Made by a program: the position numbers and the translations under genes. A DNA stretch of 58,105 nt, from NCBI GenBank assembly GCA_016869735.1, contig VGDL01000018.1, positions 1-58,105 of the forward strand. Direction: 5' to 3'. The notes below the pieces were generated by a model. That model saw only the letters and a list, made by a program, of their open reading frames with translations, was not told the DNA's origin and searched no databases. The stretch is from Alphaproteobacteria bacterium. GTDB taxonomy: Bacteria; Pseudomonadota; Alphaproteobacteria; Acetobacterales; Acetobacteraceae. Below are positions 4,033 to 57,816 of the stretch, in pieces; the first letter of the stretch is position 1; each line of letters starts with the position of its first letter.

Positions 4033-4209
4033 CTGGGGCGTCAGTCTCCGGCGGGCGGGCGCCCGGTCGCGGCGCCGCAGCGCCTGAAGCATGTTTCGGA
4101 TTGGCCGCAGAAATAGGCTTCCCCGGGGGGCGGGTCAACGCTTGCGCCTTGTGGGGAAGGGGCGCTTCGGCCATGTTCCGGGCCAATCACCTATTTGGGA
4201 TCATCCCTT

Positions 4210-5145
4210 ATGCGCCATCCGCGCGGCCCTGCCGCCTCTGCCCCCCTTCGCGCCACCCTGGCGCTGCTGCTGGGGGTGGCTTTTGCCCAGCCAGGCGAGG
4301 CGCAGCCCGCCCAGGCCACCCCGCCCGGCGACCCCGTGGTGGCCAAGGTAGATGGGGAGGAGATTCGCTTTTCAGACCTTGCCAATGCTGCCCAGGAATT
4401 GCCCGAGGAATTGCGCGGCGCGCCGGCGCAAATGCTCTATCCTTTGCTGCTCGATCAAATGATTGCGGGACGCGCCGTGGCGGCCGCTGCCCGCCGGGCA
4501 GGGCTTGATAAGGATGATGCGGTGCGTGCGCGCATCCGCCGCGCCGAAGAACAGGAATTGCAGCAGGCCTATCTTTCGCGGGAATTGGCCGGGCGCGTGA
4601 CAGAAGAACGCATCCGCGCTGCTTATAATGCCGAAATCCGCGCCCGCCCTGCGGAAGAAGAAGTACGCGCCCGCCATATTTTGGTCCCGACCGAAACAGA
4701 AGCCCGCGAAGCCTTGGCCGAAATCCGCGCCGGGGCTGATTTCAACGCCGTGGCGCAGCGCCGCTCAGCCGGGCCAGGGGCGCGGGAAGGCGGTGATCTT
4801 GGCTTCTTCAAGCGCGGCGATATGGTGCCGGAATTCGCCGAAGCCGCCTTCGCGCTCCCGGCAGGACAAATGAGCGCGGCGCCGGTGCGTAGCCCCTTTG
4901 GCTGGCACATTATCCGCGTGGATGAACGCCGTGCCTCAGCGCCGCCAAGCTTTGAAGAAGCGCGGGAAGTGCTGCGCCAGCGCCTGTTCGAAGGCGAAAT
5001 CAACGCCGTGGTGCAACAGGCCCGCGGCGCCGCGAAGATTGAACGCTTCAACCTGGATGGTTCCACCCCCCGCGCGCTTGATGCGGCGGAACCGCCCGCC
5101 CCAGCCGCCCCAGCGGGCCGCCCCGCCGCCCCTACCCGTCGTTAG
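4210..5145 (+). CDS. exported parvulin-type peptidylprolyl isomerase (SurA/PpiC-like)
   Basis: A 311-residue periplasmic prolyl isomerase/chaperone. A signal peptide occupies about residues 1-31. A SurA-N-like helical chaperone region (about 40-130) precedes a single parvulin domain (about 151-243) with VRARHILVPT, the GGDLGFFKRGDMVPEFAEAAF block and FGWHIIRVDE. The C-terminal tail is rich in Ala and Pro. I chose ATG 4210; a TTG five codons upstream is less likely. Its position divergent from secA and upstream of argJ suits a role in folding exported proteins. Its stop codon TAG (5143-5145) lies inside the left copy of the repeat described separately. Confidence 0.88.
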   Translation: MRHPRGPAASAPLRATLALLLGVAFAQPGEAQPAQATPPGDPVVAKVDGEEIRFSDLANAAQELPEELRGAPAQMLYPLLLDQMIAGRAVAAAARRAGLDKDDAVRARIRRAEEQELQQAYLSRELAGRVTEERIRAAYNAEIRARPAEEEVRARHILVPTETEAREALAEIRAGADFNAVAQRRSAGPGAREGGDLGFFKRGDMVPEFAEAAFALPAGQMSAAPVRSPFGWHIIRVDERRASAPPSFEEAREVLRQRLFEGEINAVVQQARGAAKIERFNLDGSTPRALDAAEPPAPAAPAGRPAAPTRR

Positions 5146-5244
5146 TGCATGTCCGCTTCACATCCGTTCAGCGAACACGCACTAACCAATTGTTTGATCG
5201 CATTTTCCGAGTCGCCAAGTGATTCCACTTAGCTTGAAAATGCT
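5142..5244 (+). repeat. 103-bp palindromic repeat, left copy
   Basis: The element begins TTAGTGCA and ends GAAAATGCT. It contains two nested palindromic modules: TTAGTGC with GCACTAA (about 5142-5185), and GCATTTTC with GAAAATGC (5200-5207 and 5236-5243) around an inner CCAAGTG-ATTC-CACTT hairpin. The reverse complement of 6515-6617 aligns along the full 103 bases without gaps, with about 84 identities by hand count; the last 54 bases differ at only three places. The element starts in the stop codon of the parvulin gene and ends 20 bp before argJ. It resembles REP/BIME-type or non-autonomous palindromic repeats; I cannot name a family. Confidence 0.85.
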
Positions 5245-5264
5245 CAGATTTCGGAGGAATTCCC

Positions 5265-6503
5265 ATGGCCGGACATGATATCCCCACCTCACCACTCGCC
5301 CTTCCGCTGCCGGAAATGCCGGCGGTGCCGGGGGTGCGCGTTGCCTCGGGCCGCGCCGCGATTCGCTACAAGGATCGCGATGATGTGACCGTGATGGCCT
5401 TCCCCACTGGGACCACGGTGGCGGGAGTTTTCACCCGCAATCGCTGCCCCGGCGCGCCGGTGGATTGGTGCCGCAGCGCCCTACCTGGTGGCAAGGCGCG
5501 CGGCCTGGTGGTGACAGCCGGCAATTCCAATGTCTTCACGGGCCGCGCCGGGCGCCAAACCTGTGAGGAAACCGCCAAGGCCGCCGCCGCGATCCTCGGC
5601 TGCAAGCCCAAGGAAGTGTTTCTGGCTTCCACCGGCGTGATTGGCGAAAAACTGCCAACCGAAAAACTGATCGCCGCCCTGCCGCGTATTTTTGAGGCGG
5701 CGGCAGAACGTGATTGGCAGGGCGCGGCGAAAGCCATCATGACCACCGATACCTTCCCGAAAGGCGCCATCCGCAAGGCGCGTATCGGTGAAACCGAAGT
5801 CACCGTCGCGGGCATCGCAAAAGGCAGCGGCATGATCGCGCCTGATATGGCGACGATGCTGTCCTTCCTGGCGACCGACGCAAAAATCCCCGCCGGCGCG
5901 CTGCAAGCGCTGCTGAAGAAAGGCGTTGACCGTTCCTTCAATTGCGTGACGGTGGATTCCGATACCTCCACTTCCGACACCGTGATGGTGTTTGCCACCG
6001 GCACCGCCAAGCATCCGCGCGTGCCGGCGGAAGGCGGCGCAGTGCTGAAGGATTTCGTCCGCGCCTTGAATGAAGTGCTGATGGAATTGGCACTGATGGT
6101 GGCACGCGATGGTGAAGGCGCGCAGAAGCTGATCCAGATCAACGTAACCGGTGCGACCACGGCGCGCTCCGCGCATCGCATTGCCATGTCAATCGCCAAT
6201 TCGCCCTTGGTGAAAACCGCGATTGCGGGTGAGGACGCGAATTGGGGCCGCATTGTCATGGCGGTTGGCAAGGCAGGCGAACCCGCGGATCGTGACAAGC
6301 TTTCGGTCAATGTCGGCGGTGTCTGGATGGCACGCAATGGCGGCGTGGTGGATGGTTATGATGAAGCGCCCGTCGTCCAGCACATGAAGGGCCGCGCAGT
6401 GGAAATCACCGTGGATATCGGCCTCGGCAAGGGCAAATCCACGGTTTGGACCTGCGATCTGACGCATGGCTATATTGACATCAATGGCAGTTATCGGAGC
6501 TGA
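5265..6503 (+). CDS. argJ: bifunctional glutamate N-acetyltransferase / N-acetylglutamate synthase ArgJ
   Basis: ArgJ transfers acetyl from N-acetylornithine to glutamate and in bifunctional forms also acetylates glutamate from acetyl-CoA, so it both starts and recycles arginine biosynthesis. At 412 residues it is full length. It shows TGVIGEKLP, the TTDTFPK segment, and the autoproteolysis site in APDMATMLSF, where cleavage is expected before Thr197 to give alpha and beta chains. The C-terminus YIDINGSYRS is typical. A GGAGG ribosome site lies about 8 bases before ATG 5265. The gene is bracketed by inverted copies of a 103-bp repeat. Whether it is bifunctional cannot be read from sequence alone. 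Confidence 0.96.
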   Translation: MAGHDIPTSPLALPLPEMPAVPGVRVASGRAAIRYKDRDDVTVMAFPTGTTVAGVFTRNRCPGAPVDWCRSALPGGKARGLVVTAGNSNVFTGRAGRQTCEETAKAAAAILGCKPKEVFLASTGVIGEKLPTEKLIAALPRIFEAAAERDWQGAAKAIMTTDTFPKGAIRKARIGETEVTVAGIAKGSGMIAPDMATMLSFLATDAKIPAGALQALLKKGVDRSFNCVTVDSDTSTSDTVMVFATGTAKHPRVPAEGGAVLKDFVRALNEVLMELALMVARDGEGAQKLIQINVTGATTARSAHRIAMSIANSPLVKTAIAGEDANWGRIVMAVGKAGEPADRDKLSVNVGGVWMARNGGVVDGYDEAPVVQHMKGRAVEITVDIGLGKGKSTVWTCDLTHGYIDINGSYRS

Positions 6504-6514
6504 TGTGTCACCGG

Positions 6515-6617
6515 AGCATTTTCAAGCCAAGTGGAATCACTTGGCGCCTCGGAAAATGCGACCAAACAGAGATTTAGCGCATGTCCGGTGAGCAAACGCG
6601 AAGCGGGCTTGCACTAA
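6515..6617 (-). repeat. 103-bp palindromic repeat, right copy (inverted relative to the left copy)
   Basis: Read on the minus strand this matches 5142-5244 base for base in length, with about 84 of 103 positions identical. Its palindromes are better preserved than in the left copy: CCAAGTG-ATTC-CACTTGG and the outer GCATTTTC/GAAAATGC are perfect. On the plus strand it starts 11 bases after the argJ stop and extends through 6617, so it includes the ATG at 6581 and the first 12 codons of the downstream GNAT-NUDIX gene. The two copies make a 1.48-kb unit: inverted repeat, argJ, inverted repeat. Confidence 0.85.
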
Positions 6618-7585
6618 AGACGGAACGCTTGCGGCTTCGCCCCTTGCAGGTTGACGATGCCGCGGCCCTGCATCGGCTGGTGAATGATTGGGAAGTGGCG
6701 AAAACCCTCGCCCGCGTGCCCTTCCCCTATCCGCGCGATCTGGCGGATGAATGGATCGCTTCCACGCACGCGCAAATTGCCGCCGGCACTGCCTGGCATT
6801 TGGCGATAACGCGTGATGAAGATGGCGCGGAAGCGCTACTTGGCTGTGTTGGCCTGACGCTTGATGCGAAGAACCCACGCGAAGCAGAGCTTGGCTATTG
6901 GATTGGCCGCCGCCATTGGGGCCAGGGGCTTGGGCCGGAAGCGGCGGGGAGACTCGCGCATTGGGCGCTCGCCAATCTGGATATTGATCGGCTGGTGGCC
7001 TCAGCGCTCGTGGATAATGAACGCTCGGCAGCGGTATTGCGGCGCATCGGCTTCAAGGAAACCGGCGCGGGCAGCCAGGAATTTATCTCGCGCGGTGGGC
7101 TCATGCCCGTCAGGCTGTTCAGCGCCACGCGCATGGATGTAGCGGTGGAGGCCCCGGCGCCGGTCGAAGCCGCGCCCGCCACTGGCAAGCCGACACTATT
7201 GGTGGCAGCGGTCGCGCTGATCGATTCGGAAAACCGCGTGTTGCTGGCGCGCCGACCGGAAGGCAAGCCACTCGCCGGCTTGTGGGAATTTCCGGGCGGC
7301 AAGGTGGCGCCGGGCGAAACGCCAGAAGAAGCGCTGATCCGCGAATTGCGTGAGGAATTGGGCATAGATGTCAGCGCCGCCTGTCTTGGCCCCTTCACCT
7401 TTGCGTCCCACACCTACGAAAAATTTCATCTGCTGATGCCGCTTTATTTGTGTCGGCGCTGGCAGGGGCAAGTGACCGCCATGGAAGGGCAAGCACTCGC
7501 CTGGGTGCGCCCGGCCCGGCTTGGCGATTACGCCATGCCGCCCGCCGATATCCCCCTGGTTGCCATGCTGCGCGATTTCCTTTGA
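6581..7585 (+). CDS. GNAT acetyltransferase-NUDIX (MutT-type) fusion protein
   Basis: A 334-residue two-domain protein. Residues about 13-180 form a RimJ/RimL-type GNAT domain (TERLRLRPL start, GYWIGRRHWGQGLGPEA acetyl-CoA loop, NERSAAVLRRIGF). An Ala/Pro linker (about 188-203) leads to a MutT-like NUDIX domain with the complete box GX5EX7REUXEEXGU at residues 240-262, expected to hydrolyse 8-oxo-dGTP or another nucleotide. ATG 6581 is the only ATG start: an in-frame TAG sits at 6575-6577, and the next candidate, TTG 6629, would cut into the first GNAT strand. The start codon and first 12 codons lie in the palindromic repeat, with no clear ribosome site. A secA-argJ-mutT neighbourhood is common in alphaproteobacteria. 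Confidence 0.88.
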   Translation: MSGEQTRSGLALKTERLRLRPLQVDDAAALHRLVNDWEVAKTLARVPFPYPRDLADEWIASTHAQIAAGTAWHLAITRDEDGAEALLGCVGLTLDAKNPREAELGYWIGRRHWGQGLGPEAAGRLAHWALANLDIDRLVASALVDNERSAAVLRRIGFKETGAGSQEFISRGGLMPVRLFSATRMDVAVEAPAPVEAAPATGKPTLLVAAVALIDSENRVLLARRPEGKPLAGLWEFPGGKVAPGETPEEALIRELREELGIDVSAACLGPFTFASHTYEKFHLLMPLYLCRRWQGQVTAMEGQALAWVRPARLGDYAMPPADIPLVAMLRDFL

Positions 7586-22331: not shown

Positions 22332-23513
22332 ATGAACTTGATTTCGCGTCGTGGCGCCATGGGCGGCGCCTTGGGGCTGCTTTCAGCGCCCGCCATTCTG
22401 CATGCGCAGCCGGCAGGCGGGGTGAAGATTGGTCTGGTCGCGGTGCAGACCGGGCCGCAAGCCGCGCTTGGCAGCCAACTGCGTGACGGCTTCCTGATGG
22501 GGCTGCGCCATTTGAATGGCCGGCTTGGTGGCCTGACCGCCGAGACCGTGATGATTGATGATGAATTGAAGCCTGATGTGGCCGTGACCAAGGTGCGCAC
22601 GGCGCTTGAACGCGACCGCTGCGATTTCATTGTTGGCGTGGTGTTCTCCAACATTCTGCAAGCCATTATCCGCCCGGTGACGGAAGCCAATACCTTCCTG
22701 ATCAGCACCAATGCCGGTCCTTCCACCTTTGCCGGGCGCGGCTGCAATCCGTTTTTCTTCACCACGTCCTATAACAACGACCAGGTGCATTCCGTGATCG
22801 GCCAGGTCTGCGAAGACCAGGGCTATAAGCGCGTTTTTGTCATGGTGCCGAATTACCAGGCCGGACGCGATGCGGTTGCCGGCTTCAAGTCCCGCTTCAA
22901 GGGCGAAGTGGTAGATGAGGTTTATGTGCCGCTGACGCAGCTTGATTTCGCCGCTGAGCTTGCGAAGATCGCTGCCGCCAAGCCGGATGCGATTTTCACC
23001 TTCATGCCGGGTGGGCTTGGTGTGAATTTGGTGCGTCAATATCGCCAAGCGGGGCTAGCGCATATCCCGTTCCTTTCCACCTTCACGGTGGATGAAGCTG
23101 TGCTGCCAGCGCAGCAGGATGCGGCGGTGGGTTTATTCTCGGCAGCAAGCTGGGCGCCGAATATGGATAATGCGGCCAATCGCCGCTTCGTGACCGACTT
23201 CGAAGCGGCCTTCAATTACGTGCCGGCCAGCTACGCGGCGCAAGCCTATGATGGCGCCATGCTGCTTGATTCCGCCATTCGTCGTGCGGGTGGCCGCTTG
23301 GCTGATAAGGATGCGATCCGCGCCGGGTTGCGCGCGGCGGATTTCGCTTCCGTGCGCGGCAATTTCAAATTCGGCGTGAACCATTACCCGGTGCAGGATT
23401 TCTGGCTGCTCAAAGTCGCCAAGCGCGCCGATGGCAAGTTCCAGACTGAAACCGTGCGCAAGGTTTTGGAAAACAACGTGGACCCCTGGGCCGCCGAATG
23501 CCGCATGCGCTAA
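22332..23513 (+). CDS. Liv-type ABC transporter substrate-binding protein
   Basis: A 393-residue periplasmic binding protein of the branched-chain amino acid (LivK/LivJ) family. The N-terminal signal contains RR-GAMGGALGLLSAPAILHAQ and is followed by VKIGLVAVQTGPQAALG, the standard first strand of type I periplasmic receptors. NAGPSTFAGRGCNPFFFTTSYNNDQ and the SYAAQAYDGAMLLDSAI helix also match. Members of this family bind leucine, aromatic acids, urea or other small organics; the ligand is not evident. It opens a five-gene transporter operon with a cupin at its end. Confidence 0.93.
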   Translation: MNLISRRGAMGGALGLLSAPAILHAQPAGGVKIGLVAVQTGPQAALGSQLRDGFLMGLRHLNGRLGGLTAETVMIDDELKPDVAVTKVRTALERDRCDFIVGVVFSNILQAIIRPVTEANTFLISTNAGPSTFAGRGCNPFFFTTSYNNDQVHSVIGQVCEDQGYKRVFVMVPNYQAGRDAVAGFKSRFKGEVVDEVYVPLTQLDFAAELAKIAAAKPDAIFTFMPGGLGVNLVRQYRQAGLAHIPFLSTFTVDEAVLPAQQDAAVGLFSAASWAPNMDNAANRRFVTDFEAAFNYVPASYAAQAYDGAMLLDSAIRRAGGRLADKDAIRAGLRAADFASVRGNFKFGVNHYPVQDFWLLKVAKRADGKFQTETVRKVLENNVDPWAAECRMR

Positions 23514-57739: not shown

Positions 57740-57816
57740 GGCGGCGTAGCTCAGCTGGTTAGAGCACGGCACTCATAATGCCGGGGTCAGCGGTTCAAGT
57801 CCGCTCGCCGCTACCA
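57740..57816 (+). tRNA. tRNA-Met (CAU anticodon, elongator type)
   Basis: A 77-nt cloverleaf with encoded CCA. The acceptor stem is GGCGGCG paired with CGCCGCT (G1-U72 wobble), discriminator A then CCA at 57814-57816. The D-arm is GCTCAGCTGGTTAGAGC, the anticodon arm CGGCA-CTCATAA-TGCCG with CAT as anticodon, and the T-arm contains GGTTCAAGTCC. The loop CTCATAA is the same as in E. coli elongator tRNA-Met; a tRNA-Ile2 reading AUA after lysidine modification also has CAU but usually differs in the acceptor. Confidence 0.93.

Follow-up and report, generated by a model that had tools for sequence, protein, structure and literature searches.

Two inverted copies of a dispersed two-palindrome repeat flank argJ in an alphaproteobacterial genome

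Two inverted copies of a 103-bp repeat flank argJ in the stretch of DNA analysed here (58,105 nucleotides, called the window below). Did the pair bring the gene to this place, as the two ends of a cassette, or did repeats come to lie on either side of a gene that has not moved? An earlier note, made from the sequence alone, had proposed either a mobilised cassette or a paired REP/BIME-like element formed around the gene. We searched for further copies in the window, in the genome from which it comes (G000), in congeners and across the class.

The repeat pair and its neighbours

The pair was found as the note had described it. The left copy on the plus strand and the right copy on the minus strand (Table 1) are inverted, align without gaps and are identical at 84 of 103 positions (82%). 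An inverted-repeat search recovered the same pair, as 110-nt arms that are 82% complementary and separated by 1268 nt. The two palindromic modules claimed for each copy are also present, and are named here arm A and arm B. In the left copy, arm A reads TTAGTGC...GCACTAA and arm B GCATTTTC...GAAAATGC, with a T-rich linker between them. No third copy lies in the window, in agreement with the note: besides the pair, blastn yielded scraps of 10-18 nt only. A covariance model gave 109-114 bits to both copies (E ~1e-23), a match that holds by construction since both are among the model's 57 training sequences. Three of the four remaining rows were opposite-strand readings of the same two places (E 0.012-0.16) and the fourth was a weak match at 22383-22459 (E 0.71). 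An Rfam scan of the window found no known RNA at the repeats; Rfam models of Brucella sRNAs stayed below threshold (17.1 bits at best against 59.8), which is a lead at most. The only match to reach the gathering score in the window was a tRNA gene at 57740-57813. The closest named relatives by ArgJ, among them Roseococcus and Falsiroseomonas, are 77-78% identical.

Table 1. Features at the argJ locus, in window coordinates.
Feature	Position	Strand	Basis or remark
ppiC-like peptidyl-prolyl isomerase gene	4195..5145	+	PF00639; start uncertain
Left copy, two-palindrome 103-bp element	5142..5244	+	repeat searches; 45 matches genome-wide; site empty in 12/15 close-group genomes
Left copy, arm A (TTAGTGC...GCACTAA)	5142..5185	+	fold; covariation across 57 aligned copies
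TAG stop of the ppiC-like gene	5143..5145	+	spelled by the element end TTAG
Left copy, arm B	5199..5244	+	CcrM site GATTC in loop, 5221-5225; second GANTC (GAGTC), 5209-5213
argJ	5265..6503	+	PF01960, E 8e-141; unmoved relative to its neighbours by synteny
Right copy of the element	6515..6617	-	repeat searches; occupied in 2/15 close-group genomes (G000, G036)
Right copy, arm B	6515..6560	-	CcrM site GAATC in loop, 6534-6538
Right copy, arm A	6574..6617	-	fold; alignment of 57 copies
GNAT/NUDIX fusion gene	6581..7585	+	PF13302, PF14815
Start and first 12 codons of the GNAT/NUDIX reading frame (MSGEQTRSGLAL)	6581..6616	+	inside arm A of the right copy

Copies elsewhere in the genus, and argJ without them

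The genome is a 3.25-Mb draft of 131 contigs. A search with the left copy (E up to 1) returned 45 matches, of which 11 were near full length, starting at position 3 or before and ending at position 99 or beyond; many matches consisted of arm B alone, some of them in tandem. Among 16 congeners, seven had at least 33-46 matches each, four had 1-6 and five had none. As 30 candidates were scored per genome, the high counts are lower bounds. This search of the genome and of its relatives, which the earlier note had suggested, thus reveals a dispersed family. G012 holds just one match to the left-copy sequence family, and on a contig of G008 (C39, 46618-48600) tandem arm-B units with a spacing of 56-58 bp lie beside a nearly full element.

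Mapping of the elements in the home genome gave 47 rows for 46 places, the plus-strand row at L022 being an opposite-strand reading of another. Eighteen rows lay between convergent genes, 22 between co-directional and four between divergent genes, and three were left unassigned; the gene calls came from a simple codon-usage finder without annotation, which starts argJ late. At 12 of 13 loci other than argJ, at least one element-free relative was present among four congeners. One locus (L028), whose flanks map to distant places, was set aside, and another (L002) was read in three genomes instead of four. At L019, an element-free relative was not found among the congeners examined. At many sites some congeners have the element and others lack it, and we infer that it is mobile. 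At one site with a B-only element in the home genome (L016), the same two genes are separated in two congeners (L177 in G015 C1 and L178 in G007 C4) by roughly 0.8-0.95 kb of different DNA, in which a reading frame of 179 aa looks acetyltransferase-like by eye.

We then compared the argJ locus itself. The gene was found in 32 of 35 genus genomes and 30 loci were read, 15 of which form a close group with ArgJ proteins 94-100% identical. Throughout this group, argJ is flanked by the 3' end of ppiC and the start of the GNAT/NUDIX gene. Three of these genomes (G000, G015 and G036) have the left copy, and two of the three, G000 and G036, also have the right one; the same gene order is kept in the 12 genomes without the left copy and the 13 without the right one. 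The presence of the left copy alone in G015, together with the 12 genomes that have neither, points to two separate insertions. An argJ tree of 16 rows contained one well-supported branch, joining G036 to G007 (100/99), and G007 has neither copy. The copies common to G000 and G036 are thus not explained by the argJ tree and may reflect loss, exchange or separate gain.

These data bear directly on the idea that the two copies are the ends of a mobile cassette that carried argJ. Their inverted orientation around one gene, their 82% identity and their joint presence in G036 would fit such a history. However, wherever the repeats are missing in the close group, argJ is neither absent nor elsewhere, G015 has the left copy only, and single copies of the element abound at many unrelated loci. 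We therefore consider a cassette very improbable, and this part of the earlier note does not stand: single copies occur at unrelated loci and synteny is kept without repeats around an unmoved gene. Nor does the bracket require a special cause, as about 0.6 doubly flanked genes are expected by chance. With 45-47 copies in approximately 3,250 gaps, the chance model gave 0.60-0.66 expected doubly flanked genes and a probability of 0.46-0.49 for at least one; with only 28 copies these values were 0.23 and 0.21. The finding at argJ is in itself ordinary, one instance of a genus-level family of a known kind.

Element ends and stop codons

The placement of the copies relative to gene ends was followed in 124 elements from several congeners, mostly the best-ranked among the matches listed, which were reduced to 84 independent loci. 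In 43 composites with an upstream gene pointing in, the stop codon of that gene lay exactly at the TAG of the TTAG end in 17 cases; nine other stops lay in the 21 positions outside, 12 further out and five inside. On the opposite side, 47 elements had a downstream gene pointing in. Its stop was offset from the B end by 0 or 1 in 20 of them, fell in the next 20 positions in 13, lay further away in seven and overlapped the element in seven. Upstream genes that end inside the element do so at 44 nt in five composites and at 35 nt in one.

The stop codons of element-free relatives were then compared at nine junctions from eight loci, which had been selected for having their own ends at stop codons. 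Element-free congeners shared the position of the stop codon in 36 of 37 comparisons; in the single exception the stop came two codons early, within a variable tail. This count leaves out L174, which is filled, L213, a non-homologous place, and the two loci with other DNA at the L016 site, L177 and L178, where the stop is likewise at the same codon. The stop triplet itself varies among element-free relatives (TAA, TAG or TGA), and where the site is filled it equals the spelling of the element end. At the ppiC-like stop next to argJ, for example, the same codon is TAG, TAA or TGA in 11 of 12 element-free congeners. As element-free relatives stop at the same codon, those genes have been neither shortened nor lengthened, and insertion at these loci hits a stop codon and leaves a stop.

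The right copy touches a coding sequence at its other end. The ATG of the GNAT/NUDIX frame lies at 6581, an in-frame TAG stands directly upstream (6575-6577), and the GNAT domain starts at residue 16 of the protein. The frame begins likewise in the element in G036 (MSGEQMRSGLAL), and in element-free relatives the N-terminus, read by eye, is different (for example MENDFVPLVTERL). The right copy supplies the predicted start and the 12 N-terminal codons of this reading frame, and provides an example of a repeat within which an adjacent gene is predicted to start.

Which target could place an element at stop codons? YTAR-type targets are known from insertion sequences of the IS5 group. When both copies were left out, the 58-kb window contained 48 YTAR sites; 25 of them lay outside coding sequence and 11 of these 25 (44%) held a stop codon. 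As a hypothesis, a YTAR target combined with the loss of insertions inside genes predicts about the observed share of stop codons; the looser pattern YNAR, with stops in 36 of 159 sites, predicts a smaller one. In element-free relatives, YTAR was present at the junction in 5 of the 12 loci compared, or in 11 of the 35 sequences. The left junction at argJ, with YTAR in 10 of 12 element-free relatives, brings the total to 6 of 13 sites. The other seven loci showed TCAA, TCAG, CCAG, CTGA, NTAR or similar, suggesting either that the target is looser or that these sites have changed since insertion. Among the filled sites, the A end was YTAG in 55 of 72 composites and the B end less often; left ends were mostly TTAG and right ends TCAR, TCTA or TCCR. 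No direct target duplication could be made out, the correlation between left and right ends being weak (best p 0.002, uncorrected, over 20 settings with two statistics each). In view of the YNAR share, the seven non-YTAR loci, the variety of right ends and this weak correlation, we treat the target rule as a hypothesis.

Insertion into terminator loops was considered as another rule and rejected, the enrichment being too weak (p 0.0025): at least seven complementary flanking bases were found in 4 of 60 independent composite loci against 0.8 expected. At one of the G008 loci (L238, C39), the host flanks CCCGGCGGG and CCCGCCGGG are complementary, as if the element lay inside the loop of a bidirectional terminator between two gene ends.

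Known repeats and possible origins

The CcrM-associated intergenic repeats (CIR) of Caulobacter (Chen and Shapiro 2003, as presented in PMC2229807) are about 110 bp long and consist of two long inverted repeats and a linker, with GANTC at a terminal loop of one arm and TA at the termini. In the part of PMC2229807 that deals with them they are said not to be intragenic and their mobility is left without a mechanism; the filled and empty sites found here provide junctions for this question. The CIR section of a 2024 review of MITEs (PMC10969869) reports them as strictly intergenic. By these partial descriptions, the argJ element resembles CIR in its length of about 100 bp, its two arms and linker, the GANTC in the loop together with a CcrM-like gene in the host, its dispersed and mostly intergenic distribution, and its TA termini (the YTAG A ends given above, and YTA at both ends of all nine diverged elements described below). 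It differs from CIR in that arm B is also found by itself and as tandem units, and that copies often lie exactly at stops. Some copies also encode gene ends, and the statement in PMC2229807 that CIR are not inside genes, which reads as a description more than as a strict definition, does not hold for them. Brucella Bru-RS1 (103 bp) and Bru-RS2 (106 bp), as listed in PMC10800456, are of the same length class and are likewise palindromic, repeated and alphaproteobacterial, a likeness by description only. With MITEs of insertion sequences that have YTAR-type targets the element shares its short non-coding nature, filled/empty polymorphism and YTAR-like ends. The RIME of rhizobia, reportedly intergenic mosaic elements described by Osteras and colleagues in 1995, are said to have a two-palindrome layout and can be likened to it by description only. 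A narrow literature search returned no report of the family in Roseomonas-like bacteria, nor of a placement of CIR at stop codons.

Taken together, it is likely that the pair at argJ represents two independent insertions of a dispersed, non-coding, two-palindrome element of the CIR kind, which bracket the gene by chance. A putative transposase would move such an element in trans; it would recognise the palindromic arms, with a preference for targets resembling YTAR (CTAG, TTAG, CTAA, TTAA or close variants of these). As these tetramers are rare in this GC-rich genome and, outside coding sequence, are largely stops, harmless insertions would accumulate at stop codons. The element ends carry stop codons of their own, TAG on the A side and TGA, TAG or TAA on the B side, and interrupted genes would therefore keep their reading frames. 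Against this explanation, a search for the REP transposase (PF01797) did not bring to light a transposase linked to the family.

The 57 copies align over 105 columns, with stems of 12 and 16 pairs and a T-rich linker. The consensus has 28 pairs, and at least one double compensatory change was seen in 16 of them. These comprise 11 of the 12 pairs of arm A (one of which is U-A in 29 sequences and A-U in 22) and 5 of the 16 pairs of arm B, in which variation is scarce. Pairing is thus seen in both arms and covariation in arm A; the changes may have arisen because pairing is under selection, or through template-switch repair of the palindromes. The density of GANTC is 12.1 per kb across the 124 elements and 0.86 per kb in the window. 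It lies in the arm B loop (consensus GTGATTCCAC) in 59 of the 124 elements, or 40 of the 84 independent loci, and the home genome encodes a CcrM-like methyltransferase with a RAMA domain, a 360-aa reading frame with DPPYNLQL; the RAMA domain is present in this genome and in 33 of 34 genus genomes. Inserted copies may at most act as intergenic hairpins or terminators and as candidate CcrM-methylated sites.

The copies might instead be conserved and non-mobile, retained at argJ and other genes for a regulatory function as terminators, attenuators or CcrM-controlled sites. This would agree with the compensatory changes in arm A, the enrichment in GANTC, the T-rich linker after arm A and the terminator-like complementary flanks of some copies. 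However, the copies are patchy between close species, with empty sites, including the 12 close-group genomes that have argJ alone. Moreover, the B loop has no GANTC in 65 of the 124 copies and differs between orthologous copies, which counts against claiming selection for the site. We consider this explanation quite unlikely. Even less probable is a REP/BIME family mobilised by a RAYT (Y1 transposase). The element is indeed palindromic, mostly intergenic and seldom found between divergent genes, with a TAG-bearing tetramer at the hairpin foot and tandem B arrays, and the earlier note was right as far as a dispersed palindromic family is concerned. The strict assignment to REP/BIME fails, since no RAYT was found in the genome: PF01797 is absent from it and occurs in only one of 35 genus genomes, while control searches gave matches in 5 of 14. 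The unit of about 103 bp with two arms is also larger than a single palindrome of 20-40 bp. The sole Y1 transposase match among the 35 genomes lies in G029 (C7, 20625-20960).

The stop-codon placement could also result mainly from selection and short spacers, without any target, if elements insert at any point close to gene ends and the frame-keeping insertions are those that survive. This possibility is less probable than the explanation favoured above, though it deserves more weight than the two just discussed. It would accommodate the TAG or TGA found at the element ends, the 5 of 43 independent cases in which an upstream gene stops within the element, the very short spacers at several empty sites flanked by convergent genes, and the presence of YTAR at fewer than half of the junctions. 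It is less readily reconciled with the stops at the same codon in element-free relatives (36 of 37), and with exact positions that number 17 on the left and 20 on the right against nine and 13 in the neighbouring 20-21 nt. The filled and empty sites offer a testable rule, namely placement at stop codons, possibly via rare YTAR-like tetramers. We regard the placement as the part worth following, whether or not YTAR proves to be its cause.

With stricter filters, a search with the covariance model gave matches with E of 0.001 or less in 8 of 142 genomes drawn from the class, the home genome included. Nine diverged elements were inspected, eight from seven loci of this search and one adjoining argJ in G012. 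Both termini carried YTA in all nine and the full YTAR in eight, and all had a T-rich linker with two arms whose stems differ. AGC...GCT stood inside the ends in eight. GANTC was present in seven, four of which carry it close to the arm A loop and not to that of arm B. By extension, CIR, RIME and Bru-RS-type repeats might form one class-wide mobile superfamily, with YTAR ends, two freely varying arms and a conserved T-rich linker, which would insert nearly harmlessly into tetramers that are stops on both strands, donate stops and starts, and be tied to the cell cycle through the CcrM site. We put this forward as a rather doubtful proposal.

When 80 named argJ loci and that of G012 (L149) were searched with the model, matches appeared in L149 only (E 8.5e-8, and an overlapping one at 0.015), apart from a weak match in L063 (E 0.99). 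The L149 element is diverged, has two arms, and begins and ends with CTAG; it lies at 1394-1497, just downstream of argJ.
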